DNA of 32,373 nucleotides, taken from the IMG/VR virus record IMGVR_UViG_3300045417_000586, positions 1 through 32,373 of that record; one strand, given 5' to 3'. This stretch comes from a virus. This document shows positions 5,036 to 32,373 of this stretch, piece after piece. The notes under the pieces were generated by a model, which was not told the origin of the DNA, did not search any database, and saw nothing but the letters and a program-made list of their open reading frames with translations. How positions within the stretch are numbered: the first letter of the stretch is position 1; each line of letters begins with the position of its first letter. A program made the position numbers and the translations under genes.

Positions 5036-5089
5036 GTTCAGTTCGTTGCCCAAGTTCGCAGGCACCCACGGGTGACCGTACGGGTATCA

Positions 5090-6020: not shown

Positions 6021-6100
6021 AATACACCCCCTTCCCAATACACCCCCCATAAACACTCACTCGCACGGCTCTCCCGCCGTAGAAATTCGTTATTCCCACC

Positions 6101-6480
6101 CCCCAAAAACTCCGACTTCATGAGACCCACACACCCAAAAACCCAAGTCCGTGAAACTCCCATCCCCCAAAAACCCGAGTCCGTGAAACTCGCTCTCTCA
6201 AAAACCCGACTTCGTAAAACTCGCCCCCCCAAAAACACGACTTCGTGAAACTCACCCACCCCAAAAACACGACTTCGTGAAACTCACCCACCCCAAAAAC
6301 CCGAGTCCGTAAAACTCGCCCCCCCAAAAAACCCGACTTCGTGAAACTCACCCCCTCAAAAACCCGAGTCCGTAAAAGTCGCCCACTCAAAAACCCGATT
6401 TCGTGAAAGTCCGTCAAAAAAATTCCAAAGCATGAAACGAAAAAAGGGCAGTCCGTAAAACTCGCCCCCCCCAAAAACCC
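6101..6480. repeat. 31-32 bp tandem repeats with CAAAAAC core
   Basis: The word CAAAAAC, or a one-base variant, begins at 6104, 6136, 6168, 6199, 6230, 6262, 6294, 6325, 6357 and 6388, a period of 31 or 32 bp. Degenerate copies follow near 6415 and 6472. Each unit also carries GAGTCCGT(A/G)AAACTC or GACTTCGT(A/G)AAACTC. The first form is an inverted repeat, GAGT with ACTC. Runs of C before the A tract make the minus strand G-rich. There are no spacers, so it is not a CRISPR array. It ends about 100 bp before the giant gene. Confidence 0.85.
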
Positions 6481-6585
6481 GATTCCGTAGCAGGGAAACG
6501 AGGGTCTTATTTTCCTTATCAGAAACGCCGAGAATCGGGACTACTAACACCACCGAAACGATACTCGTGCCACAATTGACGGAAC

Positions 6586-16459: not shown

Positions 16460-16465
16460 AGTCTA
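16460..16465 (-). promoter_or_regulatory. -10 box TAGACT overlapping methyltransferase stop
   Basis: TAGACT on the minus strand begins with the TAG stop of the C5 methyltransferase gene. It would start a transcript near 16453, giving a short leader with the GGGAG site for the gene at 16428. Confidence 0.42.
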
Positions 16466-18549: not shown

Positions 18550-18556
18550 TCGCACA

Positions 18557-18562
18557 ACTATA
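18557..18562 (-). promoter_or_regulatory. -10 box TATAGT, leaderless spacing
   Basis: TATAGT on the minus strand is seven bases before the ATG at 18549 and lies in the short gap after the upstream methyltransferase gene. Confidence 0.5.
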
Positions 18563-18568
18563 ACACGG

Positions 18569-21236: not shown

Positions 21237-21266
21237 GTGCGCCGACGGATTGCTCGTTGCTACTTT
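21237..21266 (+). promoter_or_regulatory. Phage promoter-like element 1
   Basis: GTGCGCCGAC is followed directly by GGATTG, eight bases, then TACTTT. The ATG at 21273 is six bases later, so the message would be leaderless. Confidence 0.75.
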
Positions 21267-21272
21267 TTGATT

Positions 21273-21677
21273 ATGGACACACTCTGCCGCTATTGCGGGC
21301 GCGAAGTCACATGGGCGACATCGAAGGCGGGCAAGCGCTACCTTGCCGAACCGACTGCAATCTTCGGTGACAACGGCAACAAAATCAAGGAAATCATGCG
21401 CGCTCATTACTGCACGGCGACCGAATCCGAGAAGCAGGCGATTGACGACGCATTGAAGGCACGCAACGAGGAAGCAATCGAGCGCGGTGAGATCGTCGTC
21501 GGACAGCATGTCGTGATCTTCAAGGGTCGCAAGTATCCGATTGGCACCACGGGGATCGTGGACTGGGTTGCCCGCGAGGCGGATCAGTACGGCGTGACGA
21601 AGGTGCGCGTGGTGCTCAACGACGGCACCAAAATCTACGTCAACCGCGAGAATCTCAAGGTCGCCGCCGTCGCCTAG
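21273..21677 (+). CDS. Hypothetical protein with CxxC and SH3/KOW-like C-terminus
   Basis: The 134-residue product begins MDTLCRYCGREVTW, with a CxxC that could bind zinc, followed by a charged helical centre. The C-terminal half, GQHVVIFKGRKYPIGTTGIVDWV, then VTKVRVVLNDGTKIYVNRENLKV, reads like a small beta-barrel of the KOW/SH3 kind found in nucleic acid-binding proteins. The family is not known to me. The start is fixed by the promoter-like element that places the transcript start at this ATG. Upstream in-frame ATGs lie inside the transglycosylase gene and are unlikely. Confidence 0.72.
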   Translation: MDTLCRYCGREVTWATSKAGKRYLAEPTAIFGDNGNKIKEIMRAHYCTATESEKQAIDDALKARNEEAIERGEIVVGQHVVIFKGRKYPIGTTGIVDWVAREADQYGVTKVRVVLNDGTKIYVNRENLKVAAVA

Positions 21678-21684
21678 GGGCAGT

Positions 21685-21714
21685 GTGCGCCGACGGATTG
21701 CCTCTCTGTACAGT
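21685..21714 (+). promoter_or_regulatory. Phage promoter-like element 2
   Basis: GTGCGCCGAC and GGATTG are followed by eight bases and TACAGT. The ATG at 21721 is six bases later. The first 17 bases are identical to element 1. Confidence 0.75.
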
Positions 21715-21720
21715 CAAAGC

Positions 21721-22077
21721 ATGGACACGCTCACCTTCACCGAAAAAGTCTCTCGCCGACTAATCATCAGTGCCGACGCCCTCGGCGACACGGATTGGCA
21801 CTACGAAGTCGCGACGATCCCTGGAACCTACATCGCGCGTTGCGTGACCGACGGCCCGGGCAAGCCGTGCTCGCTGGAGGATGCCTATTGGGTCGTCGTC
21901 ACCGTTGACGCCACCTGCACGGGTGGCTGGATCCCTGGTCACGGGGGCAGGAACGAGGCGATGTCGTCCGTCGGCAAGCCGATGCCATACACCATTCAGG
22001 TTTACGGGCACCAAGTCAGGGATTCGCTGGCTGGCGACGACTCGTGCTGGGGGATCAACGCCACCGTCGTCGCCTAA
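21721..22077 (+). CDS. Hypothetical protein, 118 residues
   Basis: I do not recognise this protein. It is mixed alpha/beta with four Cys residues spread through it and no transmembrane segment. The first part, MDTLTFTEKVSRRL, shares only its first residues with the preceding gene, MDTL. An aromatic block, DAYWVVVTVDA, lies mid-protein. The start is set by the promoter-like element immediately upstream. No ribosome binding site is visible. Confidence 0.65.
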   Translation: MDTLTFTEKVSRRLIISADALGDTDWHYEVATIPGTYIARCVTDGPGKPCSLEDAYWVVVTVDATCTGGWIPGHGGRNEAMSSVGKPMPYTIQVYGHQVRDSLAGDDSCWGINATVVA

Positions 22078-22093
22078 TGCTAATGTTGCCGCC

Positions 22094-22438
22094 ATGGCAG
22101 ACAAGAGGCGCGACAAACGACGAGAAACTCGGGACAAGATCGGCAGGGAAGAAGTGCTCGATCTCGCAAAAGAGGCGACTTCGAGCATCCGCAACATCAG
22201 TTACGGCGAGCCGCAGGATGACTTCGCCTGCACGTCGGAGTTGTGGGAGTCGTACCTGGCGCGCACCATGCAGGTCAGGGGAAGGTTGACGGTGCGGCCG
22301 TACGACGTCCCCGTGATGATGGTGTTGCTGAAAATTTCGCGGCTCGCCCAGACGCCCGGCGATGCCGATCACTGGGTGGACATGGCCGGTTACGCCGCGA
22401 TAGGCGCGGAGTGCGCAATGATGGAGTGCTGCGAGTGA
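22094..22438 (+). CDS. DUF6378-like phage protein
   Basis: The 114-residue protein has a charged N-terminus (MADKRRDKRRETRDK) and then a helical domain with VPVMMVLLKISRLAQTPGDADHWVDMAGYAAIGAE. This matches my memory of DUF6378, a phage family with conserved LLK.aR and D..vD.aGY positions, in the general style of MazG-like helical proteins. Its function is unproven. A TAATGT box lies seven bases before the ATG and there is no ribosome site. Its stop overlaps the GTG start of the next small gene. Confidence 0.72.
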   Translation: MADKRRDKRRETRDKIGREEVLDLAKEATSSIRNISYGEPQDDFACTSELWESYLARTMQVRGRLTVRPYDVPVMMVLLKISRLAQTPGDADHWVDMAGYAAIGAECAMMECCE

Positions 22439-22524
22439 GCCGGCTTCCCGTGATTGCCGCGATCGTCGGGACTGCCGTGACGTTCCTGATCGTGCTCGTC
22501 TGGGTCGCCTCGTTGTCGTGCTGA
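22435..22524 (+). CDS. Putative 29-residue membrane protein
   Basis: A GTG start overlaps the stop of the previous gene in GTGA. The peptide reads SRLPVIAAIVGTAVTFLIVLVW and ends in VASLSC, one clear transmembrane helix. The overlap suggests translational coupling. It ends eight bases before the convergent gene at 22532. The shortness limits certainty. Confidence 0.5.
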   Translation: MSRLPVIAAIVGTAVTFLIVLVWVASLSC

Positions 22525-22531
22525 TCCCGTC

Positions 22532-22834
22532 TCAGAACGGCGAGGAGTCCGCCTCATCCTTGTCGCGGTGAATGGTCTCGGTGAGTTCGCCCACCACCTC
22601 CACCCCGTGCCAATCGACCAGTGCCCGGCAAACATCGATCAGGGCCGCCGGGTAGTTCCCGTGCTTCCGGTAGGCGGCATCCGCGAGATTGACCGCCGTT
22701 CGCTCGGCGGTTTCCCTCTCGGCTTCCAGGTATTGCCTCAGCGGCTCGTCGTGCTTGAGCGTGTGCTCTTCGGCCATTCGATCCAGGTGATCCTGGTAGA
22801 GATCGGCCGCGATCTCCTGCTCCATCTCGTTCAC
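22532..22834 (-). CDS. Hypothetical helical protein, 100 residues
   Basis: The product is acidic and mostly helical, with QEIAADLYQDHLDRMAEEH and YLEAERETAERTAVNLADAAYRKHG, then a Trp-containing segment (ALVDWHGVEVVGELTETIH). The family is unknown to me. It starts at a GTG overlapping the previous stop in GTGA and is the last of five tightly packed minus-strand genes read from the promoter at 23751-23780. Confidence 0.65.
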   Translation of the reverse strand: MNEMEQEIAADLYQDHLDRMAEEHTLKHDEPLRQYLEAERETAERTAVNLADAAYRKHGNYPAALIDVCRALVDWHGVEVVGELTETIHRDKDEADSSPF

Positions 22835-23061
22835 TCCCGCACCTCCGTCGTGACGTGGTTGAAGTATGCCGCGACCTCGTAGCCGAATTCCTCCACGAGG
22901 TCGCTGTAAGCCAGGGCCTGGGCATCCTCGGCATCCGTCGTCGTGGCGGCGAGCGTGATTGAGCGGATGTTGCTCATCGTCTCGAGCTTCTTGTTCGCCC
23001 GGAAAGTGACGAAGTAAGTCCGCTCGTAGAGGATCGTCGGGTCGTCATCAATGTCGGTCAT
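22831..23061 (-). CDS. Hypothetical protein, 76 residues
   Basis: After an acidic start (MTDIDDDPTILYERTYFVTFRANKK) the protein continues with SITLAATTTDAEDAQALAYSDLVEEFGYEVAAYF, a strand then helix pattern. It resembles small phage proteins of unknown role that I cannot name. The ATG at 23061 overlaps the stop of the upstream small membrane gene in ATGA. Further upstream starts would run through that gene and are rejected. Confidence 0.62.
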   Translation of the reverse strand: MTDIDDDPTILYERTYFVTFRANKKLETMSNIRSITLAATTTDAEDAQALAYSDLVEEFGYEVAAYFNHVTTEVRE

Positions 23062-23210
23062 GAATCGAGCCCGCACTTGTCGCAGTAGGAGTCGTACACG
23101 CTCGGCCCGTGGTCGCACTGGCCGTCGTTCAGCACGTCGCGAGCGATCAAGTACAGAGAGAGCAGCACGAGGTTGCCGAAGATGAAAAAGGCGAACCAGA
23201 AGTTGTCCAT
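23058..23210 (-). CDS. Small membrane protein with Cys/His tail, 50 residues
   Basis: The N-terminal FWFAFFIFGNLVLLSLYLIA is a single transmembrane helix. The tail has QCDHG and then YCDKCGL, four Cys/His positions that could bind a metal. The gene fits between its neighbours with a four-base gap upstream and an ATGA overlap downstream, as expected for an operon member. The precise fit, the complete frame and the conserved-looking CDKCG motif support it. Confidence 0.65.
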   Translation of the reverse strand: MDNFWFAFFIFGNLVLLSLYLIARDVLNDGQCDHGPSVYDSYCDKCGLDS

Positions 23211-23214
23211 GCAG

Positions 23215-23478
23215 TCAGACTACACCGCGGGCATCCGCGTCGCTCTCGTCGTAGGCGATGGTGATCCTGCTGGATGCCCGGACCGTGTAATGCTCCGCAC
23301 GCGATTTTTCCACGGGGAATCCGTGTATCGTGCCGTAAATCTGGATGTCGTTCGACTTGTCGTAAATGCGCACGACCCGGCCGACGTACTTGTAAGGCTT
23401 GCCGTTCACGGTGATACGCACGGTTCGACCGTTCACGACTGCCGTTCGCGCGAATGCCAGCACCTCGCTCTTTTTCAC
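23215..23478 (-). CDS. Hypothetical beta-rich protein, 87 residues
   Basis: The protein is rich in short strands: GRTVRITVNGKPYKYVGRVVRIYDKSNDIQIYG, then HYTVRASSRITIAYDE. This suggests a small beta-barrel, perhaps nucleic acid binding, but I cannot name a family. A GTG start overlaps the stop of the upstream gene in GTGA. It is the second gene of the minus-strand series. Confidence 0.62.
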   Translation of the reverse strand: MKKSEVLAFARTAVVNGRTVRITVNGKPYKYVGRVVRIYDKSNDIQIYGTIHGFPVEKSRAEHYTVRASSRITIAYDESDADARGVV

Positions 23479-23744
23479 GCGGGACCGCCTTCGTCGTCGT
23501 CGTCGTAGTAGTCGGCACCTTCGTCGTCGTCGGGGTCAAAGGCGAAGGCCTGCTCCCAGCACCACGGGTGGGTCCCGGAAATAATTTGCTCTCGCACCGC
23601 CTTGTCAAGTTCCGGGAACGCGACTTGGGCGAGCGCACCGCTGTTGTAAGCGGTGAGGCCAGCATTTGAGACGGTGACTTCGCCCGTGTAACCGCAGACG
23701 AAGCAACGACGGGTGGGTACGGTGGTGAGGAAGTCGTTGGACAT
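23475..23744 (-). CDS. Hypothetical protein with CxxC and acidic tail
   Basis: The 89-residue product has CFVCGYTG near the N-terminus, a candidate zinc site, and HPWCWEQAF later. It ends in a very acidic tail with runs of Asp (DPDDDEGADYYDDDDEGG). The family is unknown to me. The start is set by the promoter-like element, whose -10 box lies six bases upstream. It is the first gene of a five-gene minus-strand unit. Confidence 0.65.
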   Translation of the reverse strand: MSNDFLTTVPTRRCFVCGYTGEVTVSNAGLTAYNSGALAQVAFPELDKAVREQIISGTHPWCWEQAFAFDPDDDEGADYYDDDDEGGPA

Positions 23745-23750
23745 ACCATA

Positions 23751-23780
23751 ACGGTACAGGGGCGAAATCCTTCGGCGCAC
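23751..23780 (-). promoter_or_regulatory. Phage promoter-like element 3
   Basis: On the minus strand GTGCGCCGAA and GGATTT are followed by eight bases and TACCGT, then six bases and the ATG at 23744. It is divergent from element 4. Confidence 0.75.
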
Positions 23781-23794
23781 CAAGCCCGCGGTCG

Positions 23795-23824
23795 GCGCGC
23801 CGAAGGATTGCGATCCGTTAGTTT
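23795..23824 (+). promoter_or_regulatory. Phage promoter-like element 4
   Basis: GCGCGCCGAA and GGATTG are followed by eight bases and TAGTTT, then six bases and the ATG at 23831. Confidence 0.73.
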
Positions 23825-23830
23825 TGGGGC

Positions 23831-24073
23831 ATGACCACCACTTACAAGAGCAAACTCGTCTACCTCACGCGCGACTACGGTTCGTTCGTGGGCAGGACCA
23901 TCAAGCAGATCCGCCCGCTCACCAAGCACGAGTGCGAGGCGATGGGCTGGGAGTTCGAGCACGAGGATTATGCCGTCGTCGTGATTTTTGACGACGGTAC
24001 CGGGTTCATTCCGATGGCGGATCCCGAGGGCAACGGTGCAGGCTTCCTGATGAGCACGGCAGAATCCCGATGA
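23831..24073 (+). CDS. Small conserved-looking phage protein
   Basis: The 80-residue protein has GRTIKQIRPLTKHECEAMGWE and then VVIFDDGTGFIPMADPEGNGAGFL. The DDGT and D.EGNG.G blocks recur in small phage proteins I have seen, but I know no function. The start is fixed by the promoter-like element. Its stop overlaps the ATG of the next gene in ATGA, so they form one unit. Confidence 0.7.
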   Translation: MTTTYKSKLVYLTRDYGSFVGRTIKQIRPLTKHECEAMGWEFEHEDYAVVVIFDDGTGFIPMADPEGNGAGFLMSTAESR

Positions 24074-24633
24074 CGAACCTCGCCGACACGCTCAGGCGCC
24101 ACGTCGAAATCTCGAAGATGACGAAGATCGACGCCTGCCGTCGCAACAACGGCCCCGCGGACCTCGTGCCGATGTGCGTGTGGGTTGACGGCGAGGATCA
24201 GACGAACATCGCCATCGTCGATGCGAAGGGAAACACCTCTGACTTCATGCCCAAACTTCTCTCGCTGCTCGCCGAGCAGTCGCCGAAGGTCATCGTGTTC
24301 ATGTCGGAGTCGTTGGCCAAGCAGGTCGGTTCGACGAAGGAACTCGATGAGTTCTTGGCGACCAACAAGCCGGGCGACCTGCGGAAACTCTACGACGCCC
24401 ACGGTCCGTTGTCCGGACTCCAGGAACTCATCGCATTCAGTGCCCTGAGCGTCGTCACGGGCGAGCAGATGCAGGCCATTGCGAGGTTCACCTACGACGA
24501 TTCGGGTCTTCCGGTGTTCAGCGAGACCGAGATGATGGAAATCCCCAGGGCCGACATTGACAAGGCGAACATCAGTTGGCTGTTCGACAAGTTCTATGAG
24601 TTCATGAAATCGTCGCAGGCCGAGACGAACTGA
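24070..24633 (+). CDS. Hypothetical protein, 187 residues
   Basis: I do not recognise this gene. The protein is alpha/beta, with VPMCVWVDGEDQTNIAIVDA, then LLAEQSPKVIVFMSESLAKQVG, suggesting alternating strands and helices, and a C-terminal helical segment. It has no membrane segment. It starts in an ATGA overlap with the upstream gene. It runs 32 bases into the convergent end of the helicase gene. Confidence 0.68.
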   Translation: MTNLADTLRRHVEISKMTKIDACRRNNGPADLVPMCVWVDGEDQTNIAIVDAKGNTSDFMPKLLSLLAEQSPKVIVFMSESLAKQVGSTKELDEFLATNKPGDLRKLYDAHGPLSGLQELIAFSALSVVTGEQMQAIARFTYDDSGLPVFSETEMMEIPRADIDKANISWLFDKFYEFMKSSQAETN

Positions 24634-26497
24634 GTCTGCTCGCCACCCTCTGCCGGACTGACTGCACGACATCGCCACCGTCGACTGCCCCGGCGACGAC
24701 CTCCTCTTTCCGGGAGATCGTGCGGTGAATGTCCTCGTCAATGCTGCCCGCCATCAGCGCGTAGGTCACCCGGACCGATCCGCGCTGGCCGATCCGGTGT
24801 AGCCGGCCGTACGTCTGCTGCACATCGGCCGGCGTCCAGGGTAGTTCGACGAAAACTATGTCCTGGGCCGCGGTCAACGTGTGCCCGGTCTTCGCGGCCT
24901 CGATGGAGAGGGCTATTGCCGGGCTGTCCTCGACCGAATTCTCCTGAAATTTGCGCTTTGCCTCCTCGACATTGACCACCGACATGCCGCCCTGTATCTT
25001 GAGGCCGCCGTACCGGGCGGCAATCGCATCGACCACGTTGCGATGGTGGGCCGCGACCACCACTTTGCGCCCGGAGGCCACCATTTCGTCGATGAGCTCG
25101 AGCACGCCGGGCAATTTTGCCTCCGCGGCGAGCCGCCGAAGCACCGAAATGCGCGCAAGTTGCTCCGGGGTGTTGCTGGATCGGCCATTTTGCTCGAGCC
25201 AAGTCCCGACATCGGCCTCTGCGACGGCATAATCTCGTTTTCCCTTCTCTGAACCCTCAAAATAGACGGTTGATTCGAGCACTGGGGGCAGTTCGGAGAG
25301 GACTTGATCCTTCGTTCGCCGGATGTAGCACGTCGAACGCAGCGTCGAGTTGAGTTCCTCAAGATTCGAGTGTCCATCAATGCGGAACTGGCCGAATTTG
25401 TCCCGATGTGCGTCGCAATACCGGCGCCAGAAGCCCATGCGACCGCCGAAAGTGTCGAGTTTTCCAAGAATGTCGAGCTGGGAGACGTACTCTGCCGGGC
25501 GGGAGGTCACCGGAGTGCCGGTCAGCAGCAGAATCGGGGTCGTAATTGACGCTCGGCGGCATATTTTGATCGCGGCCTTCGTGCGTTGCGCCGTGTGAGC
25601 CTTGAGATAGTGGCTTTCGTCGAACACGTAGCCCCCCAACCCCGTCAACTGAGCCTGCCATGCGAAGAGATTCGGGTAACCGATGACGACAATGTCGTAA
25701 GTCCCGAACTCCGGGAACTGTTTGCGCCCAGAAACGATGGCAATTCGGCGTTCTGGCAACCATTTTTCGTACTCCTTGGCCCAGTTGAGCGTCAAATTCG
25801 CCGGGCACACGACTGCGACGGGGTAAATGGGTGACTGGCGGTGCATTTCCTCAATGGATGCGATGGCCTGGAGCGTCTTTCCCAGACCCATCTCGTCGGC
25901 AATGAAGCAACGACGCCGGTTTCTTGCGTATGCGACGCCGGCTTTCTGGTACGGCATGAGTTTTTCGAACCCGGCGATGGAAATTTCTGCGCCGGTCGAG
26001 CGAGATTCGGCCAATGCGGCTTCCATGTACGCCTGAATCTTGCCGGCTTCGACCCGGACATCATCCGGAATGTGCATTCGGAAGCGCTCTGACCAGGCGA
26101 TTGACTGCGAGATTGACGAAATTGGCGCTCGCCAGGCCTTCGTCTTGGCATCCCAGGTGATGCCCGGTATCTGCTTGATGCTGCGGACCTTCACCGGGTC
26201 GTAATTGAAGCTCAGAAAGACGAACTTCCCGGCCAAATAAATGCCCGAACCGGGGTTCTTGTGGTTCGGGACATCGAGAACCAGCACGTCCGGCTCGATG
26301 GTCAGGCCGATTTCGACGGCGAAGTTCCTCGCCGGGACCAGCGATGTCACCGGGACGCGCCAAGTCTTGTCGACCTTGTCCCATCTCGCCCCGGCAATCT
26401 GCTTTATCATGTCCACTTCGGCCCTGTCGTACGGCCAATCAAGCACCAGGTGGTCGTCGTTCAGGGACATCCGCCCCTTGGTTCCCTCCGTCGGCAC
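24602..26497 (-). CDS. SNF2-family helicase with two HARP-like repeats
   Basis: The 631-residue protein has an SF2 SNF2 ATPase core: DEMGLGKT at 201-208 (Walker A Lys207), DESH at 293-296, and a C-terminal QQTYGRLHRIGQRG motif VI. Before it lie two related repeats of about 50 residues, with GARWDKVDKTWRVPV and GITWDAKTKAWRAPI, that resemble the HARP repeats of SMARCAL1. SMARCAL1-type enzymes reanneal DNA strands at stalled forks, so a role in phage replication or recombination is likely. The GTG at 26497 has a TAGTCT box six bases upstream and fits leaderless transcription. An ATG at 26470 with AAGGGG before it is an alternative. Confidence 0.9.
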   Translation of the reverse strand: MPTEGTKGRMSLNDDHLVLDWPYDRAEVDMIKQIAGARWDKVDKTWRVPVTSLVPARNFAVEIGLTIEPDVLVLDVPNHKNPGSGIYLAGKFVFLSFNYDPVKVRSIKQIPGITWDAKTKAWRAPISSISQSIAWSERFRMHIPDDVRVEAGKIQAYMEAALAESRSTGAEISIAGFEKLMPYQKAGVAYARNRRRCFIADEMGLGKTLQAIASIEEMHRQSPIYPVAVVCPANLTLNWAKEYEKWLPERRIAIVSGRKQFPEFGTYDIVVIGYPNLFAWQAQLTGLGGYVFDESHYLKAHTAQRTKAAIKICRRASITTPILLLTGTPVTSRPAEYVSQLDILGKLDTFGGRMGFWRRYCDAHRDKFGQFRIDGHSNLEELNSTLRSTCYIRRTKDQVLSELPPVLESTVYFEGSEKGKRDYAVAEADVGTWLEQNGRSSNTPEQLARISVLRRLAAEAKLPGVLELIDEMVASGRKVVVAAHHRNVVDAIAARYGGLKIQGGMSVVNVEEAKRKFQENSVEDSPAIALSIEAAKTGHTLTAAQDIVFVELPWTPADVQQTYGRLHRIGQRGSVRVTYALMAGSIDEDIHRTISRKEEVVAGAVDGGDVVQSVRQRVASRLSSSRPATIS

Positions 26498-26503
26498 GGA
26501 ATC

Positions 26504-26513
26504 AGACTACCAT
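26504..26513. promoter_or_regulatory. Overlapping divergent -10 boxes (TAGTCT minus, TACCAT plus)
   Basis: Minus-strand TAGTCT (26504-26509) is six bases before the GTG at 26497. Plus-strand TACCAT (26508-26513) is seven bases before the ATG at 26521. The two boxes overlap by two bases, so both genes cannot easily be transcribed at once. Confidence 0.5.
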
Positions 26514-26520
26514 TTCTCGC

Positions 26521-26805
26521 ATGGCGAAAAAATTCGACACGAATCCGGTGACGCCCGGCGACGACGATGAGCTGAACGGCCTGTCGGCGGAGCTGTTGCA
26601 GCAGAGAATTGCGGCGCTCGAGCTGCGGATACGAAGCATCGAGAAAAGCATAAGCTTGACCCTGTCTGACCCGGCGTTCAGGACGAGGCTCGACCCAGAT
26701 GATGCTTCGTGGGCCAAGAACGAGAAGTCGCTCGGACGCATCGCCGGCATCATTTCCAACCCGATTGGCAGACTGAGGAAACGTCTCGACGACGAGACGG
26801 CCTAG
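26521..26805 (+). CDS. Coiled-coil hypothetical protein, 94 residues
   Basis: The protein has a helical heptad-like stretch (ELLQQRIAALELRIRSIEKSI) suited to a coiled coil, and charged ends. No domain is recognised. It diverges from the helicase gene with overlapping -10 boxes. It ends one base before the stop of the minus-strand gene at 26807. Confidence 0.65.
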   Translation: MAKKFDTNPVTPGDDDELNGLSAELLQQRIAALELRIRSIEKSISLTLSDPAFRTRLDPDDASWAKNEKSLGRIAGIISNPIGRLRKRLDDETA

Positions 26806-26806
26806 A

Positions 26807-27058
26807 TCACGAGAGTTGCCGTCCCAACTTCAGTTCGGCCAACTTGGCCGTCTCGATCAGCCTGAGGATCATCTCCAGGATTTCGCCGTCGGTGGCAAGT
26901 TCGCCGTCGATCTCCATCGTCGCACGGATCGCATCGAGCGTGAACCCGTGCAACCCGGACTCAACCTCATCCGCCCACATCATCGGATCCTTGCCGTCGG
27001 CGACGGCAATCAGCGGGTTCATGAAAAACTCGTGCCACTGTTCGGGGGTCAGGCTCAT
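26807..27058 (-). CDS. Hypothetical protein, 83 residues
   Basis: The protein begins SLTPEQWHEFFMNPLIAV and continues as mostly helical, with ILEMILRLIETAKLAELKLG at the end. No family is known to me. The ATG overlaps the stop of the WGR-like gene in ATGA, so it belongs to that transcript. Longer upstream starts would read through the WGR-like gene in another frame. Confidence 0.62.
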   Translation of the reverse strand: MSLTPEQWHEFFMNPLIAVADGKDPMMWADEVESGLHGFTLDAIRATMEIDGELATDGEILEMILRLIETAKLAELKLGRQLS

Positions 27059-27381
27059 GCGTCCACCAACTCTATGTGGCGGGCGTAGTCGTGCCAGTAC
27101 CCTCCGTCGAGTTTCTTGCGCACGACCCGATAGGCGGACCGATAGGCCTCGTGGTAGTCGTCGCACGCGGCAACGGTGTCGCCCGAGAGTTCGTACAGTT
27201 CCTGTCCGTCGGCCTTGCCCCAGAACTTCTTGACGACGAAGATCCCATCCTTGCGAAGTTCGATTCGCACGATGTATTGCTTGAGGCCGCCCATCGAGCC
27301 ACGGGATCCGTCGCTCTTGGCGAGCAGTCTCCACGTGGCGACTGCGCCTCGGTCGTAGGTCGGGTTGTCGAGTGTGGTCAT
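27055..27381 (-). CDS. WGR-domain-like protein
   Basis: The 108-residue protein has KQYIVRIELRKDGIFVVKKFWGKADGQ, then AACDDYHEAYRSAYRVVRKKLDGGYWHDY. The order is strand, WG(R/K) with G.GQ, then a helix ending in K...GY, as in WGR domains, which bind nucleic acid in PARP and some bacterial proteins. Arg is Lys in the motif here. The promoter at 27399-27428 and a GGAGG site before the ATG support the start. The helicase gene lies further along the same strand. Confidence 0.55.
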   Translation of the reverse strand: MTTLDNPTYDRGAVATWRLLAKSDGSRGSMGGLKQYIVRIELRKDGIFVVKKFWGKADGQELYELSGDTVAACDDYHEAYRSAYRVVRKKLDGGYWHDYARHIELVDA

Positions 27382-27398
27382 TGTTCCTCCGTGCTTCC

Positions 27399-27428
27399 AC
27401 TATGTCGGGTCGTCATCCTCGGGCGCAC
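27399..27428 (-). promoter_or_regulatory. Phage promoter-like element 11
   Basis: On the minus strand GTGCGCCCGA and GGATGA are followed by eight bases and CATAGT, then a short leader with GGAGG and the ATG at 27381. It is divergent from element 5. Confidence 0.65.
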
Positions 27429-27445
27429 GGGCCGGCCCGGGCAGG

Positions 27446-27475
27446 GTGCGCCGAGGGATTGCGACGAGGCATACT
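27446..27475 (+). promoter_or_regulatory. Phage promoter-like element 5
   Basis: GTGCGCCGAG and GGATTG are followed by eight bases and CATACT, then six bases and the ATG at 27482. Confidence 0.72.
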
Positions 27476-27481
27476 TGGACC

Positions 27482-27640
27482 ATGGCAGGAAACAGGCTCG
27501 AGGATCTTCAGGAACGCTCGCCCGACTTGCTCTCGCTGTGTTGCGAGGCCTTCACCACCTACATGGAGGTCGGCACCGACGACAAGGGTGAAACCGTCTG
27601 GGCTCTGTGTTGCAAGGCTTGCTACGGGATAATCGAGTAG
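27482..27640 (+). CDS. Small Cys-rich hypothetical protein, 52 residues
   Basis: The peptide has two Cys pairs, LCCEAF and LCCKACYG, that could bind a metal between two short helices. No family is recognised. The start is set by the promoter-like element. The next element of the same kind begins at its stop codon. Confidence 0.6.
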   Translation: MAGNRLEDLQERSPDLLSLCCEAFTTYMEVGTDDKGETVWALCCKACYGIIE

Positions 27641-27669
27641 CGCGCCGAAGGATTGTGCGCGGTTAATTT
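27640..27669 (+). promoter_or_regulatory. Phage promoter-like element 6
   Basis: GCGCGCCGAA and GGATTG are followed by eight bases and TAATTT. Here a leader of about 20 bases with AAGGAGGGG separates it from the ATG at 27695, so the element is not tied to leaderless starts. Confidence 0.7.
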
Positions 27670-27694
27670 CATGGTGGACCCACAAGGAGGGGAC

Positions 27695-28117
27695 ATGGAC
27701 TACGCAGTAAGCAGGAGACTCACCGAGCAGGTGTCGGCCGAGATCCAGACCGCCATTCTCCCGATTCTGGAGAAGTACGGTCTCAAAATCACGAAGTTCG
27801 CGTCCAAGTACGGCGACTCGTACGGTCTCACCATCTCGGCAGTCACCACCAAACTTGACGAGTCCGGCGTGAACCTGAACTCCGCAGAAGCGATTTACTA
27901 CGACCGCTTCGGCTACTGCGACTACGACCACGAGGGCAACCCCATCAAACTCACCGCCAAACTCGGCACGAAGTTCGACAACCGCGGTCGCAAGTTCGTG
28001 TTCGCGGGCATTCGCTCGCGCGGAAAGAACAAAATCGTCGCCAAGTGCGAGCAGGACGGCAAGGACTACGTGTTCGCGGACACGATAATCCCGCAACTCA
28101 ACGAGGCGTCCAAATAG
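27695..28117 (+). CDS. Hypothetical protein, 140 residues
   Basis: I do not recognise it. It is alpha/beta, beginning with a long helix (LTEQVSAEIQTAILPILEKYG) and then strands (LKITKFASKYGDSYGLTISAVTTKL). It is rich in Lys, Asp and Tyr, with no membrane segment. The ATG at 27695 is preceded by a strong AAGGAGG. Earlier in-frame starts overlap the -10 box and are rejected. Confidence 0.7.
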   Translation: MDYAVSRRLTEQVSAEIQTAILPILEKYGLKITKFASKYGDSYGLTISAVTTKLDESGVNLNSAEAIYYDRFGYCDYDHEGNPIKLTAKLGTKFDNRGRKFVFAGIRSRGKNKIVAKCEQDGKDYVFADTIIPQLNEASK

Positions 28118-28147
28118 GTGCGCCCGAGGATTGCGACGAGACACAAT
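28118..28147 (+). promoter_or_regulatory. Phage promoter-like element 7
   Basis: GTGCGCCCGA and GGATTG are followed by eight bases and CACAAT, then six bases and the ATG at 28154. Confidence 0.7.
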
Positions 28148-28153
28148 AGGGTC

Positions 28154-28393
28154 ATGAACGACAAACGACTCTTCACCTCACTCGTCTCGCTCGCGGCGAT
28201 CAACACCGTGTTGGTCGCCGTCGGGGTTGCCCTGATGCCGAGCATCGCGCTCGCCGTCGTGTGGGCGCTGTGCGCCCTCACCCTGCACCTCGCATCGATG
28301 GTGTACCTCGCCGCTCGGGAACTCGGGCGAGAGTTCGGCGCGCACCAAGAATGGGTCGCGCGGTTCGAGCGCCAGATGCTCGACGACAAGTGA
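28154..28393 (+). CDS. Small two-helix membrane protein, 79 residues
   Basis: Two hydrophobic helices, LVSLAAINTVLVAVGVALM and IALAVVWALCALTLHLASMV, are followed by a charged tail. No signal peptidase site is evident, so it should be an inner-membrane protein. Its function is unknown. It starts six bases after the -10 box of the promoter element. Confidence 0.68.
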   Translation: MNDKRLFTSLVSLAAINTVLVAVGVALMPSIALAVVWALCALTLHLASMVYLAARELGREFGAHQEWVARFERQMLDDK

Positions 28394-28425
28394 TCGGATC
28401 GGTCCGGTCTCGCTAGGGTGGAGAC

Positions 28426-28617
28426 ATGAATTCGGACGAGGCAAGGCGAGAGGTGGGCAGACTCCTGACCGAGCGCGACTGCTCGGGCATGACGGGATCG
28501 ATGCGCAGCATCGCCAACGACTACGCCAACTACCGCTACGAGATGAACCTCGGCATGGCCTCGGCTCTCCTGAAGGTTCTCCGTCGCCAGCCGTACTGGC
28601 GGGAGGGGACGAAATGA
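28426..28617 (+). CDS. Hypothetical protein, 63 residues
   Basis: The protein is helical and charged (SDEARREVGRLLTERDC, then ANDYANYRYEMNLGMASALLKVLRR). A TAGGGT box is six bases before the ATG and a weak GGAG also lies there. It overlaps the next gene in ATGA. The family is unknown. Confidence 0.6.
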   Translation: MNSDEARREVGRLLTERDCSGMTGSMRSIANDYANYRYEMNLGMASALLKVLRRQPYWREGTK

Positions 28618-28934
28618 GCCGTGGCATTCGGTGCTTCGTTGCGGGGGTCGGCCTGACACTGTTGCTCGTGTTCGCCTGGTCAAGATCCCAGGACTCCGAC
28701 GCCTACGAGTGCGAGAAGACGCCGATCCTGAGTGCCGAGGGCGACGACTACTGGGGGTACATCGAGCGGCACTGCGAGGGCAACCTCCAGAACGCCGCAG
28801 ACGATGTGGTTTCCTTCTACGGCCCGACGCTGATGCCGGGTCGGGTTATTTACCTGCCGACCTCCGACGAGTGTGAACTCCAACTGGTGCTCATGCCCAA
28901 CGGAAACGAGTATGTGTACGAAACCTGCCCCTAG
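28614..28934 (+). CDS. Secreted or anchored LysM-like protein, 106 residues
   Basis: A basic start and a hydrophobic run (CFVAGVGLTLLLVFAW) form a signal peptide or anchor. The rest includes YWGYIERHCEGNLQNAADDVVSFY and TLMPGRVIYLPT, a pattern like a LysM repeat, which binds the glycan part of cell walls. Four Cys residues in the exported part could form disulfides. It overlaps the upstream gene in ATGA. Together with the transglycosylase it suggests some cell-envelope activity. Confidence 0.6.
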   Translation: MSRGIRCFVAGVGLTLLLVFAWSRSQDSDAYECEKTPILSAEGDDYWGYIERHCEGNLQNAADDVVSFYGPTLMPGRVIYLPTSDECELQLVLMPNGNEYVYETCP

Positions 28935-28988
28935 CGCACCCGCGGAAGCGGTGGTAGGGTGGTCCCACTACGAGAGAGGAGTAGCAAC

Positions 28989-29087
28989 ATGGGCATCCTG
29001 ATTCCGTTCGTCATCATCTTCGTGTTGGGCTCGTTGCTGTGGTTCGCCGGGCGAGGCGACCCAGACAAGGATCGGCAGTGGCCGTGA
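28989..29087 (+). CDS. Putative 32-residue membrane protein
   Basis: The peptide starts MGILIPFVIIFVLGSLLWFA and ends in a charged tail (GRGDPDKDRQWP), a single-pass form. A GAGAGGAG site lies seven bases before the ATG and a TAGGGT box near 28955 could be its -10. Together these make a real gene more likely than chance. Confidence 0.58.
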   Translation: MGILIPFVIIFVLGSLLWFAGRGDPDKDRQWP

Positions 29088-29118
29088 CCGTTCACGATGC
29101 AATCGGCGCGGCAACCAA

Positions 29119-29268
29119 GTGCTCGCCGTGCGGTTCTCAGTCCCGACCCACGACTGCCGCGTGCAGTTGTTCAGCTTCCTGAAAATCACGCCCGATCCCG
29201 GCCACCATCAGTACTCGACACTCGGCATGAAGTGTTGCGAGTGGGGGTTTGATCCGAACGACGACTAG
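29119..29268 (+). CDS. Possible small Cys-containing protein
   Basis: This frame reads VLAVRFSVPTHDCRVQLF, then QYSTLGMKCCEWGFDPNDD to a stop at 29268. Composition looks protein-like, but the GTG at 29119 has no ribosome site or -10 box at the usual distance, and another frame is also open. It fills the gap before the convergent gene at 29289. Confidence 0.33.
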   Translation: MLAVRFSVPTHDCRVQLFSFLKITPDPGHHQYSTLGMKCCEWGFDPNDD

Positions 29269-29288
29269 GTCGCGCGACGGAGGTGTGA

Positions 29289-29714
29289 CTACTTGTTGGC
29301 GAAGTGTTTTTCCACCTCGTCGTGACCTGCCCACAACCGACGACGGAAGGCGAGATTGTCCGAACCGACCTTCGTCGCAACCCACGAGCGAATCTTGTCC
29401 TTCGGCATGCGAGCGAACTCCCTGTACACGAGGTCATAGCCTTCGCCATCCGAGTTGTCGAAATCTGCGAGAATCTCGCTCGGCAAATCACCGAAGTCAA
29501 GACCGAACATGTCTCCGTAGTCGCCCAAGTAGGCGACACGGTCGCCGTGCCACTCGCCACCCTCTGCCGTGAGTTCACGAGCGAACTGCACCAGACTGCC
29601 TGCGAAGTCCCTCTTCGGCGTGCCGAACTCGCCCAACTTGTAGCCGAGCCCCAAGTCGTGTGGCGACACATACTCCCTCTTGTCCAAGTTGGCGAGAACG
29701 AATCCTTGTCCCAT
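29289..29714 (-). CDS. Conserved-type hypothetical protein beginning MGQ...NLDKREY
   Basis: The 141-residue protein starts MGQGFVLANLDKREYVSPHDLG, a beginning I know from a widespread uncharacterised family (MGQ, then N..K.EY..P). Later it has WHGDRVAYLGDYGDMFG, also typical of that family. No catalytic motif is visible. The ATG at 29714 follows a strong AGGAGG, and the promoter element lies just upstream. In-frame starts further up run through the promoter. Confidence 0.75.
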   Translation of the reverse strand: MGQGFVLANLDKREYVSPHDLGLGYKLGEFGTPKRDFAGSLVQFARELTAEGGEWHGDRVAYLGDYGDMFGLDFGDLPSEILADFDNSDGEGYDLVYREFARMPKDKIRSWVATKVGSDNLAFRRRLWAGHDEVEKHFANK

Positions 29715-29731
29715 GTTTTCCTCCTGCATAG

Positions 29732-29761
29732 ATGATACGGCGACGAAATCCGTGGGCGCAC
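29732..29761 (-). promoter_or_regulatory. Phage promoter-like element 8
   Basis: On the minus strand GTGCGCCCAC and GGATTT are followed by eight bases and TATCAT, a good -10 box, then a leader with AGGAGG and the ATG at 29714. Confidence 0.77.
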
Positions 29762-29787
29762 CGAGGATCTTCGTGGGGCGATGCCGA

Positions 29788-29817
29788 GTGCGCCCATGGA
29801 TTGCGATCTCGTATGCT
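29788..29817 (+). promoter_or_regulatory. Phage promoter-like element 9
   Basis: GTGCGCCCAT and GGATTG are followed by eight bases and TATGCT, a near-consensus -10 box. A leader of about 45 bases with GGGAGG follows before the GTG at 29868. It diverges from element 8. Confidence 0.77.
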
Positions 29818-29867
29818 TGGGTCACAGTTCGCACCGTGTCGTGCGTAGCAGATACCGGGAGGTAATC

Positions 29868-30152
29868 GTGAGCATTCGGGAGACACACAAGACCACCATC
29901 ACCCTTGATGTTCAGCAACTTTTCGAGGTGAGCAAGGCAATCACGGATCGTATCGCTCGGTATGCGACTTCGCCCGACGAGATGTACCCGTATCGCCTGC
30001 AGGATCTCGCCGTGCTTCAGTCGGTTCAGCAGGTGCTGGAGAAGAACATTCAGTTCGTCTGCGACGGCTACGACGACGAGATTGCCACCGACGAAGCCAC
30101 CGAACTTGACGACGAGGAAGCAATGAAGCGATTCTTGGAGGGGGACAAATGA
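29868..30152 (+). CDS. Hypothetical helical acidic protein, 94 residues
   Basis: The protein has ITLDVQQLFEVSKAITDRIARYA and LQDLAVLQSVQQVLEKNIQFV, two helices, and an acidic tail (DDEIATDEATELDDEEAMKRF). The family is unknown. A GTG start with GGGAGG five bases before it was chosen over earlier in-frame codons, which lie in the promoter region. It overlaps the next gene in ATGA. Confidence 0.65.
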   Translation: MSIRETHKTTITLDVQQLFEVSKAITDRIARYATSPDEMYPYRLQDLAVLQSVQQVLEKNIQFVCDGYDDEIATDEATELDDEEAMKRFLEGDK

Positions 30153-30433
30153 ACCGTCAGCAGATAATGGACAGCGTCCGGGACTTCGTCGTCAATGACT
30201 TGGGCGACGATGAAGGCGAGAACGACGAGATCATCAAGGATCAGGTCGAGTCTTGGGATGGCGCAGACTGGCACGATGTCGTTGATGTCGCGCGAGAACT
30301 CATGAAGCAGGATGGCTTCACGGAGAGACAGAAGAACTTGTTTTCTCGCATAGTGTCTCGCATAGATTTCGAGTGGCAAGCCGCCCACGACCGAAGCATT
30401 GACCCCGACCTCAATGAGTGGGGTTACCCCTGA
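30149..30433 (+). CDS. Hypothetical acidic protein, 94 residues
   Basis: The product is acidic and mainly helical (IMDSVRDFVVNDLGDDEGENDEII), with WDGADWHDVVDVARELM and FSRIVSRIDFEWQAAHD. It is not recognised. The ATG overlaps the stop of the previous gene, and GGAGG lies just upstream, so the two are translated together. Confidence 0.63.
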   Translation: MNRQQIMDSVRDFVVNDLGDDEGENDEIIKDQVESWDGADWHDVVDVARELMKQDGFTERQKNLFSRIVSRIDFEWQAAHDRSIDPDLNEWGYP

Positions 30434-30480
30434 CCCGTCTGGGGTGAAGTGTGGGACGAGGGTAATCAGTCGTAAGGATT

Positions 30481-30512
30481 GTCGCCAGGCGACGAGCATC
30501 TTGCTTTAAACT
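30481..30512 (+). promoter_or_regulatory. Operator-like inverted repeat with -10 box TAAACT
   Basis: GTCGCC A GGCGAC at 30481-30493 is a perfect inverted repeat and follows GGATTG-like sequence. TAAACT at 30507-30512 is six bases before the ATG at 30519, giving a leaderless start. The arrangement differs from the eleven standard elements. Confidence 0.48.
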
Positions 30513-30518
30513 TGGACC

Positions 30519-31229
30519 ATGCCAGAACTGAATGCGTCAATACCGGCCATCGAGTGTTTCGTCCGTGGCAACTTCTTGCGCGACCAGCAAGACTCACACG
30601 AACTCAAGTTCCCGTGCTGTATTTTCGGAGTTGCTTCGATTCCGGACCGAGTCCCGATGTTCCATTTCCTCATGGAAGATGGGGGAATTTGGTGGCGCAT
30701 GCCGATCAACGCGTTCTGCTGGAAACAGGACGCGCCGGAACTCGACATACACGACCAAGTGTTGTGGAACTCCTTTTCGCCGTATGTGGCCGTCACGGTG
30801 TTCCACTCGCTCCGCGGCATGCGCATGGAATACGTCGACAGGCACAGACGCAAGCACAAAGGCGTCTACCTGATGACGCTCGACTGGCACTGGCCAGAAA
30901 CAAACACAATCAACCCCGGGTGGTCCGAAAATCCGGGACAACACAAATGCGGCCATCTCATCCAACTCGATGACGGCAATTTCGCGATACAACCAAACAA
31001 CAGGGTCATATTGAAAGACCCGTCGTTCACGACGAAGGTGGGTACTCCGGTAATCCAGAGACTCCTGAACAACCACATGTGGTCAGTAGAGGATGCAGAC
31101 AGGTGGGTCGCCGAGGACAACGAGAACTACTTCTACTCAATTTCGTCAAGTCAGTACGACCATCACCAGCAGGAAAAAGCACACGAGTTGCAGGTCCGGG
31201 ACAGTCCCGATGCCGACCAGCCGCGGTGA
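30519..31229 (+). CDS. Uncharacterised phage protein, 236 residues
   Basis: I do not recognise a function. The protein is rich in Trp, His and Cys, with FPCCIFGVASIPDRVPMFHFLMEDGG, INAFCWKQDAPELDIHDQVLW, and later KCGHLIQLDDGNFAIQPNNRVILKDPSF. The last block looks like a conserved core seen in unnamed phage proteins. The C-terminus is hydrophilic. It is the longest gene in the right third besides the helicase. A start at 30519 fits the -10 box six bases upstream. Confidence 0.72.
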   Translation: MPELNASIPAIECFVRGNFLRDQQDSHELKFPCCIFGVASIPDRVPMFHFLMEDGGIWWRMPINAFCWKQDAPELDIHDQVLWNSFSPYVAVTVFHSLRGMRMEYVDRHRRKHKGVYLMTLDWHWPETNTINPGWSENPGQHKCGHLIQLDDGNFAIQPNNRVILKDPSFTTKVGTPVIQRLLNNHMWSVEDADRWVAEDNENYFYSISSSQYDHHQQEKAHELQVRDSPDADQPR

Positions 31230-31271
31230 CCGATTCGGGACGAAGCGCGGCTCGAGCGGCCACGGGCCTGC

Positions 31272-31472
31272 TCAGAACAGTTCGCCCTGCGATTTGTCCT
31301 TCAGCTCGTACTCGATGCACACCCTGTGGGCGAAGCGCCAAGTGCGCTCCGTCTGCCTGATCACTCTCCCGTTGGTGACCCAAGCAGTGACCAGCTCGGC
31401 CGATGTCTCACCCTTCGGTTCCACGGGGTAGTTGCAGATGTTGCACCTGTACTGTTCGTGCACTCTCGTCAT
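31272..31472 (-). CDS. Hypothetical zinc-finger-like protein, 66 residues
   Basis: CNICNYPV near the N-terminus and HRVC later could form a four-ligand metal site. The C-terminus ends in SQGELF, after a charged segment. No family is known. The ATG lies five bases after the stop of the upstream gene, so they are one unit. Confidence 0.58.
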   Translation of the reverse strand: MTRVHEQYRCNICNYPVEPKGETSAELVTAWVTNGRVIRQTERTWRFAHRVCIEYELKDKSQGELF

Positions 31473-31477
31473 CCTAC

Positions 31478-31744
31478 TCAATGGATGGTGACGACCTCGC
31501 CCTCCGGGAACTCGTGGCGGACCGTGCGACCATCGCCGTCTCTCGCCTCCACGATCACCGTGCCCTCGAGATCCCTGCCACGAATCATCATCTCCATGGC
31601 CCGTTCTTCGAGACGAGCAGGCAGGCGCGAGACGAACTTGACCGTCACCATCCGCCTGCTGATTTCCAACTTGTCGCCGGCACGGAGATCCCGGGCCGAA
31701 CGAATCATGCGAGGGCGAGCGACGCCCCGTGGAACGTCGATCAC
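31478..31744 (-). CDS. Hypothetical beta-rich protein, 88 residues
   Basis: The protein has RDLRAGDKLEISRRMVTVKFVSRL and DLEGTVIVEARDGDGRTVRHEFPEGEVVTIH, alternating strands that suggest a small beta-barrel. The start is the GTG at 31744, which overlaps the upstream stop in GTGA. A TTG at 31753 and an ATG at 31708 are alternatives. Confidence 0.58.
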   Translation of the reverse strand: MIDVPRGVARPRMIRSARDLRAGDKLEISRRMVTVKFVSRLPARLEERAMEMMIRGRDLEGTVIVEARDGDGRTVRHEFPEGEVVTIH

Positions 31745-32070
31745 CTGTACCAATCATCCTTCGGCTCGTCGCCGTACCCGGACGGCAACCGTCGCCTAGG
31801 AGGTCGGATCTCGTTCTTCACTTCTCGAGCGAACCCTACGGCATCCCTCGCCGTGTCGCCGTATTCCTCGACCTGAGACCTGATGAATTTGAAGGCGACC
31901 CAACCCCCGAGGATAGCGAGAGCGAGGAAGATCCTCCCCCAACCGATGAAGCCCAGCACCCTGAACACGATCCCGAACGCGAGCGAGGGAGCGAACAGGG
32001 CAACGAGGACCGCCGTTGCGACGGGGTGGGCTTTCACCCAACCGAGGAAATTGCTGACGGTGTTTCTCAT
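31741..32070 (-). CDS. Small membrane protein, 109 residues
   Basis: Two hydrophobic helices (AVLVALFAPSLAFGIVF and IFLALAILGGWVAFKFI) are followed by a charged C-terminal tail with PPRRRLPSGYG. It should be an inner-membrane protein with a cytoplasmic tail. Its function is unknown. The ATG is in an ATGA overlap with the upstream gene and seven bases after the -10 box of element 10. Confidence 0.68.
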   Translation of the reverse strand: MRNTVSNFLGWVKAHPVATAVLVALFAPSLAFGIVFRVLGFIGWGRIFLALAILGGWVAFKFIRSQVEEYGDTARDAVGFAREVKNEIRPPRRRLPSGYGDEPKDDWYR

Positions 32071-32373
32071 ACCTCTGACGATACGGCAGGGGAATCCGTT
32101 GGCGCATGCGAGGTCGGATCCTGCTCGGGGGCGACCGACCAGCACCAAGCATTATTCATGACGGCGTAGTAGATGTCGCTCAAGCCGTCAGCAGGCCACC
32201 TCAGCAAGGACGAGGGCATCTGCTCGGTCGTACCGTCCTCGGCGGAATACAGAAGCACCATGTTGGTGTAGCCGATGGTCAGGATTCTGAGTTCGTCCTG
32301 TGGCTCGTCACTCAGGGCATTCTGCTCGTTCACGAGTTCTATGATTTTCCTGACGGTTGAAATCGTGAAGAGA
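32067..32373 (-). CDS. Partial hypothetical protein at the right edge
   Basis: The frame is open to the right end of the window. It reads TISTVRKIIELVNEQNALSD, then LRILTIGYTNMVLLYSAEDG and LSDIYYAVMNNAWCW, before a low-complexity end. An in-frame GTG at 32333 is possible as a start, but the protein-like sequence before it suggests that the gene continues outside. The family is unknown. It overlaps the downstream membrane protein gene in ATGA. Confidence 0.6.
   Translation of the reverse strand, partial: LFTISTVRKIIELVNEQNALSDEPQDELRILTIGYTNMVLLYSAEDGTTEQMPSSLLRWPADGLSDIYYAVMNNAWCWSVAPEQDPTSHAPTDSPAVSSEV
32078..32107 (-). promoter_or_regulatory. Phage promoter-like element 10
   Basis: On the minus strand ATGCGCCAAC and GGATTC are followed by eight bases and TATCGT, then seven bases and the ATG at 32070. 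It lies within the 3' end of the upstream gene, so it could give a second, independent transcript. Confidence 0.68.

Follow-up and report, generated by a model that had tools for sequence, protein, structure and literature searches.

Which signal drives the small genes at one end of a lake phage fragment, and what reads it? The window analysed here, the complete IMG/VR record IMGVR_UViG_3300045417_000586 (32,373 bases), is a fragment of a lake phage genome in which a 30-bp promoter-like element, built of GTGCGCC, three free bases, a GGATTG-type block and a -10 box, occurs eleven times from position 21,237 onwards. The sequence evidence supports reading the eleven elements as promoters that serve one phage regulon of small genes. 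Our preferred explanation for them, to which we give a probability of about 0.5, is that host RNA polymerase would be directed to these promoters by a MotA-like phage activator that depends on a protein we call Rdr, each phage lineage having a private recognition code.

Eleven copies of a two-block element locked to a -10 box

The pattern RYGCGCCNNNGGATK matched the window exactly 11 times, whereas dinucleotide-shuffled sequences gave a mean of 0.21 matches and a maximum of 2, with none of 100 shuffles reaching 11. All coordinates and strands of the original prediction were recovered in this way, as were its three divergent pairs (23780-/23795+, 27428-/27446+ and 29761-/29788+). At 11 of 11 sites a -10 box of the form YANNNT lies 8 bases past the second block (six letters, GGATTG or a variant), without a mismatch. 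The two blocks and their fixed spacing stand as originally described, but the letters had to be relaxed. The consensus of all 11 copies is RYGCGCC-N3-GGATK followed at constant distance by YANNNT: the strict GT start becomes RY (GC at 23795 and 27640, AT at 32107), the list of GGATTG-type blocks becomes GGAT[TG], and the -10 variants include CATACT, CATAGT and CACAAT. The sole additional match in the window with at most 2 mismatches, at 19119+, has no -10 box, and a weight-matrix scan of the window returned the same 11 sites and no weaker copy. The motif search of the entire window found no copy left of 21,237, as had been claimed.

Most of the elements are placed as leaderless promoters

With positions numbered from the first G of GTGCGCC, the -10 box occupies positions 25-30. 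The distance from the element to the start codon, a feature absent from the original prediction, proved to be constrained: an ATG stands at position 37 in six window sites and at position 38 in one (32107-), 6-7 nt past the -10 box; for the last of these a start at 32070 or 32071 is predicted. Seven of the 11 sites are thus leaderless. The other four are led by a Shine-Dalgarno (SD) sequence; in these, position 37 is a purine, the SD sequence follows, and the start codon lies 11-44 nt further on (Table 1). Since the leaderless start codons mark a transcription start some 7 nt downstream of the -10 box, the block GTGCGCC would fall at -36 to -30 and GGATTG at -26 to -21, which agrees with the earlier placing of GTGCGC at the -35 position and of GGATTG in the spacer. 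The whole element would cover about -36 to -20 with its centre near -28. It contains no -35 consensus, and YANNNT lies at -12.

The same geometry was found in relatives. Among 411 element sites drawn from 28 locus sets, some of them of closely related phages, an ATG or GTG lies exactly 6 nt from the -10 box in 31%, compared with 3.6% for control TANNNT sequences, and 7 nt from it in 8%, compared with 4.0%; these codons are depleted at 8-20 nt. In whole-locus counts of most relatives, TANNNT-N6/7-ATG exceeds other spacings, and in locus L010, at sites where the -10 box is one base closer, the ATG shifts along with it. Overall, 304 of 320 element words lie at a fixed distance from a TANNNT. Predicted starts about 7 bases past the -10 box, together with an element and spacing that are kept in relatives, support the promoter reading at the level of sequence.

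A TANNNT -10 box with the start codon 6-7 nt downstream is a trait of leaderless actinobacterial promoters. Leaderless mRNA is usual in Actinobacteria, and the -35 box of these hosts is weak. The present sites resemble leaderless sigma-A promoters in their -10 box and in a start about 7 nt downstream that falls on the start codon, but differ from them in that the -35 region of such promoters is not a phage-specific element of 15-20 bp. We give almost no credence to the alternative that the copies are a dispersed repeat or mobile cassette with no regulatory role. They are indeed short, multi-copy and mostly intergenic, yet they keep an exact register with the -10 box and start codon, their orientation fits the downstream gene, and their core is kept though the flanks diverge.

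A second promoter class was also seen in the window, with the leaderless arrangement TANNNT-N6/7-ATG/GTG and no element (639+, 1961+, 3386+, 22094+, 26521+, 28426+, 30519+ and 26497-).

Relatives carry private elements in the same register on one genome arm

Relatives were sought through the helicase gene of the window, which retrieved 44 viral loci. Close relatives (78-85% helicase identity) carry the same element and spacing, with 19 copies each in G001 and G002. In G003 (150,897 bp, 83% helicase identity) about 40 degenerate copies, counted with up to 2 mismatches and a -10 box, all lie at 104-136 kb. At 50-60% helicase identity the window element is replaced by another in the same register. 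Elements of other lineages in this register include TGTCTCAnnAGCGTCCCA, AATCCGGAGAAnnACGCA, AACTTGTTAgTCGtCCGTAACG, TTTTGAGATAGGTTGCACG and GGTGTAGCATGgcCTAGGCG. Such private elements differ by lineage: G005 has TGTCTCAnnAGCGTCCCA, L016 AATCCGGAGAAnnACGCA, L013 TAGCGGCGAC, L019/L020 TGAyACACCC and L036-L040 GGTTGtnATTG...ATAACCGA. When aligned at the -10 box, the lineage elements occupy about -37 to -17. The 411 sites represent about 25 private codes, with up to 14 near-fixed bases in an element. No near DNA matches of the arm that carries the sites were found in isolate phages or plasmids.

In near-complete relatives the sites are confined to one arm of 25-35 kb, and the structural part has none. 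In G005 (140,645 bp, of which 140,000 were read), 24 of 24 copies of its own element (0-1 mismatch) lie at 111-136 kb; the sites of G024 lie mainly at 95-126 kb of 173, and those of G025 at 79-107 kb of 160. The arm holds small genes, mostly of unknown function, together with SSB and helicase. The suggestion that the element marks one class of genes thus holds in the spatial sense. That the class is early or middle in timing is a weak suggestion.

Other recurring sequences were noted in these loci. In several lineages (seen in the L014 sites and in L019/L020), the transcripts that are not leaderless open with a common leader, ACCTACTA, followed by an SD sequence. L018 has a recurring sequence without TANNNT, perhaps another type of promoter: the starts at 58, 619, 3040 and 3246 (+) and at 1418 (-) are preceded by AAATCC...GACAGNNNNGGTATG. 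Relatives without Rdr (L023:446-8412, L032:763-8468 and others) carry nine copies of TCTTCCRCCACCGTC on one strand, about 700 bp apart and often followed by AGCCCCG, possibly RNA or termination elements.

Two dozen promoters changed together between two relatives

A comparison of G024 (172,519 bp) with G025 (160,449 bp) bears on what reads the element. Their arms are syntenic, and median protein identity is 91% genome-wide. G024 has 30 sites of TTGTAAATCTGATATC and G025 has 33 of TTGGAAATTTGGTATC, with the same genes downstream. In 24 orthologous promoter pairs, positions 4 (T/G), 9 (C/T) and 12 (A/G) agree in only 0, 4 and 1 pairs, respectively, while the remaining core positions agree in 22-24 of the 24; the flanks agree at 53% upstream and 81% downstream. 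Since two dozen promoters carry the same new letters, a shared trans-acting reader is needed. This concerted change is the strongest single piece of evidence, at the level of sequence, for such a reader, and the case that it is phage-encoded is strong. The original suggestion of a phage activator gains indirect support from the lineage-private elements, from this switch and from the co-occurrence with Rdr described below.

A host factor, either an alternative sigma factor or an activator, would account for lineage differences if the hosts differ. Although the -10 box and leaderless start are of host type and the phages come from different environmental samples, we consider this reading very improbable: each element has up to 14 near-fixed bases, 24 orthologous promoters switched together between relatives with about 90% protein identity, and the elements are confined to one phage arm. 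A guide-RNA reading of the element was dropped because the elements contain free internal positions.

The -10 and start geometry is of the host sigma-A type, and no match to Sigma70 region 2 (PF04542) was found in 20 records, the control matching in 10 of 14. A phage sigma factor is therefore unlikely, and the altered polymerase that had also been proposed finds no support. Matches to Sigma70_r4_2 do occur in 15 of the 20 records, but the proteins in G003 and G005 are small-terminase-like and no region 2 accompanies them.

Activation is favoured over repression

The T4 MotA box is centred between -30 and -31 and replaces the -35 box, while the consensus -10 box is kept and the host RNA polymerase is used (PMC6755090). 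The window element is similar in that it lies near -30 (centre about -28) in place of a -35 box with a -10 box present. It differs in that the MotA box is one short box, whereas here a two-block element of 15-20 bp varies by lineage, and in that starts here are often leaderless. MotA_activ (PF09114) had no match in 8 near-complete relatives, in a search in which the control likewise matched nowhere.

Activation is favoured because the element sits where a -35 box would be, almost every copy has a -10 box at one set distance, and several lineages have no other -35 box. We hold this with moderate confidence. Conservation of the register alone is undecisive, because sites that evolve in place keep their register under activation or repression.

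The chief rival to activation takes the element as an operator, at which a phage repressor bound between the -35 and -10 boxes of ordinary host promoters would shut the arm, for superinfection immunity or for an early-to-late switch, and drift of the repressor would drag its sites along. Its model is found in cluster A mycobacteriophages, whose 20-30 asymmetric sites per genome have a consensus that drifts with the repressor (PMC6550527) and are bound by a monomeric protein that has two DNA-binding domains (PMC9283540). The present sites resemble these stoperators in number, in their asymmetry and orientation with transcription, in the drift of the consensus and in a candidate phage protein with two DNA-binding parts. 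In addition, Rdr often carries its own site and, weighing against activation, many lineages retain a TTG in the -35 position and a spacer of 17-18 bp, which would also fit a host promoter whose spacer holds a repressor site. However, most stoperators lie away from promoters, whereas 304 of the 320 element copies are fixed to a -10 box, and integrase and resolvase functions (PF00589, PF00239) were not found in 10 records of relatives. Such a TTG box and spacer are missing from the window lineage and from the lineages of L014, L227 and L013, and in the first three no -35 box is recognisable beyond the element. Repression is, in our judgement, unlikely.

Two other actinophage repeats invite comparison. 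Cluster K phages carry start-associated sequences (SAS) and extended SAS (ESAS), repeats upstream of many small genes that have promoter-like hexamers and a consensus varying by subcluster; the ESAS are 17-bp imperfect inverted repeats upstream of the 13-bp SAS near start codons, seven occur in Adephagia, and no reader is known (PMC3203893, PMC11373665). The position upstream of small genes and the lineage-dependent consensus are shared, but no inverted-repeat pair or SAS was found in the aligned sites here. A cluster O actinophage has more than 30 copies of a 17-bp palindromic repeat, mostly off promoters, and leaderless promoters are predicted in it (PMC4351075); that repeat is likewise a short sequence in many copies, but unlike the present element it is palindromic and mostly lies off promoters.

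Rdr is the best candidate for the reader

Rdr is a phage protein of about 160 amino acids (164 in G005, 168 in G024), singled out among the proteins common to G003 and G005. Of 20 records, 14 encode it; G008-G011 and G017, which showed no comparable element, do not. In G005 its gene lies behind the lineage's own element and has a leaderless start; a weaker copy is found there in G003 and L013. An Rdr query brought 80 loci. When multi-copy words at a fixed distance from TANNNT were sought automatically, 73 of 105 Rdr loci yielded an element (49 of them in at least 6 copies), compared with 1 of 45 control loci that lack Rdr and were retrieved with an unrelated helix-turn-helix (HTH) protein. The one control locus with a hit bears a window-like element. 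The 105 loci include many near-duplicates and form 45 clusters at 80% Rdr identity, about 30 of them with an element. In 15 of 36 loci Rdr is preceded by an element at 12-40 bp, which is not clearly above expectation, many genes of the arm having one.

The predicted structure of Rdr (mean predicted local distance difference test score, pLDDT, 90.9) consists of a four-helix N-terminal domain and a C-terminal winged helix. By fold, the C-terminal domain is similar to numerous winged helices (IclR, PurR, Rok, Zalpha; Z 6-8.6), and a fold search with the N-terminal domain (pLDDT 93.7) gave no clear match among those listed (Z at most 4.0). In Pfam and PHROGs nothing scored above cut-off, a profile search of PDB sequences gave no significant match, tblastn with four queries found none in 50,697 isolate phage records, and no occurrence was confirmed in GTDB species genomes. 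WhiB is found in 11 of 12 Rdr phages, which points to actinobacterial hosts.

Several observations weigh against Rdr as the reader. It is absent from the window, which is a fragment, though the nearest relatives have it. About 30% of Rdr loci have no detected element, and loci L022-L026, without Rdr, carry a 5-copy word fixed 20 nt from a -10 box (L050, also without Rdr, has four copies of a canonical TTGACA promoter). Co-occurrence fails to separate Rdr from co-inherited genes, several of which are found in 20-26 of 35 lineages. The elements of L183, L188 and L190 differ strongly, yet their Rdr proteins share 75-83% identity; the winged-helix and second HTH-like helices are nearly the same in all three, and the differences fall mainly in helices 1-2. 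Finally, partial Mantel tests gave no association of Rdr distances with those of the elements (0.04), though the element distances are near saturation. In the G024/G025 group, the only fixed Rdr differences between the two element types are T16N and A65T, both in the N-terminal domain. Such constancy of the recognition segments implies either that the N-terminal domain sets specificity or that Rdr is the conserved partner of another reader.

The latter leads to the alternative that the element is recognised by some different phage activator or sigma-like factor, Rdr being a conserved partner (for example a polymerase-docking part) or simply co-inherited. Beyond the constant recognition helices and the negative Mantel test, other DNA-binding neighbours exist, of HTH_3, WhiB and ribbon-helix-helix types, and one conserved neighbour resembles sigma region 4.2. 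This protein (L183:13584-14036 (-) and 21 other lineages) combines a helicase-associated-like (HA) domain with a sigma70 region 4.2-like segment (GKSLRQIADEFDLSRQRVHQIV) and exceeds the Sigma70_r4 cut-off in some records. However, it is very constant, with one fixed residue differing between two element types, and no Sigma70_r4 match was found in G005, which has 24 elements; it is a possible partner of Rdr. The recognition segment of the HTH_3 protein is still more constant than that of Rdr, and Rdr is the only family in 35 of 35 neighbourhoods, though the set was built that way. We regard a reader other than Rdr as possible but on the doubtful side, and the identification of Rdr itself as moderately to weakly supported.

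Two further proteins were rejected as readers. In the small HTH_3 protein (G003, G005, G012-G014, G016) the recognition segment GIDRKTVNRIENGHFSPS, with close variants, is constant across different elements, and the protein is frequent in phages that lack elements, as in 44 of the 45 control loci. The WGR-domain protein occurs in only 2 of 20 records. The small HTH_3 protein, with its near-invariant segment GIDRKTVNRIENGHFSPS, was seen in about 90 viral loci (G003:123711-123962; loci L096-L175).

Proposed mechanism

Under the preferred Rdr-dependent activation, host RNA polymerase with its housekeeping sigma factor would contact the -10 box (TANNNT) and start 7 nt further on, mostly at the start codon's first base, giving a leaderless mRNA. 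A phage-encoded factor would bind the two-block element, at about -36 to -20, which overlaps or replaces the -35 box, and would recruit or retarget polymerase, by analogy with T4 MotA at middle promoters. As the specificity of the factor drifts, the 20-35 promoters of each phage would follow, leaving a private code per lineage in a fixed register. Rdr, which is often served by its own element and so perhaps autoregulated, may be this factor or an indispensable component. The fuller claim is that large phages of uncultured Actinobacteria encode an undescribed family of transcription factors, Rdr, whose target is an asymmetric two-block element that overlaps the -35 region of leaderless host promoters, and that its specificity was repeatedly rewritten at all 20-35 promoters in concert to give dozens of natural, mutually orthogonal promoter/factor pairs in one register. 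This claim is plausible but, we judge, somewhat short of an even chance.

Features of the window

Table 1. Promoter elements of the window, with predicted starts and the genes they precede, and the helicase gene.
Feature	Coordinates	Strand	-10 box	Predicted start	SD	Start codon	ORF (open reading frame)	Remark
Element	21237..21266	+	TACTTT	21273		ATG 21273	21273-21677	leaderless
Element	21685..21714	+	TACAGT	21721		ATG 21721	21721-22077	leaderless
Element	23751..23780	-	TACCGT	23744		ATG 23744	23475-23744	leaderless; divergent with 23795+
Element	23795..23824	+	TAGTTT	23831		ATG 23831	23831-24073	leaderless
Element	27399..27428	-	CATAGT	27392	CGGAGG	ATG 27381	27055-27381	divergent with 27446+
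Element	27446..27475	+	CATACT	27482		ATG 27482	27482-27640	leaderless
Element	27640..27669	+	TAATTT	27676	AAGGAGG	ATG 27695	27695-28117	
Element	28118..28147	+	CACAAT	28154		ATG 28154	28154-28393	leaderless
Element	29732..29761	-	TATCAT	29725	AGGAGG	ATG 29714	29289-29714	divergent with 29788+
Element	29788..29817	+	TATGCT	29824	GGGAGG	GTG 29868	29868-30152	
Element	32078..32107	-	TATCGT			ATG 32070	31741-32070	leaderless; ATG at 7 nt from -10 box
Helicase gene	24602..26497	-	TAGTCT			GTG		leaderless; no element; query for relatives

Elsewhere in the window, positions 4365-6585 form a 2.2-kb stretch without plausible genes, composed of short C-rich repeats (CCTGAGTAGTACCAC..., AAACCCGACTTCGTGAAACTC...), which directly precedes an ORF of 3092 amino acids (6586-15864). 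Five DNA methyltransferase genes, an S-adenosylmethionine (AdoMet) decarboxylase gene and a gene resembling phosphoadenosine phosphosulfate (PAPS) reductase lie in 639-4364 and 16463-19405.

Implications

A phage factor with a dedicated promoter class is known as a kind. For lineage-private elements that are rewritten repeatedly, lie on leaderless promoters of Actinobacteria and are coupled to an undescribed protein family, we found no description in the literature searched, which was mainly open-access. If the preferred reading is true, these phages would offer a natural series of promoter and regulator rewiring, with one regulon architecture and about 25 recognition sequences, and one step of it would be caught between two relatives whose arms are largely syntenic, with three bases changed at two dozen orthologous promoters. 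The series would permit direct tests of how function is kept when a factor and its dozens of sites change in step, and actinobacterial hosts would gain candidate orthogonal promoter/activator pairs from it. It would also help to predict transcription starts and start codons across a large group of uncultured phages.

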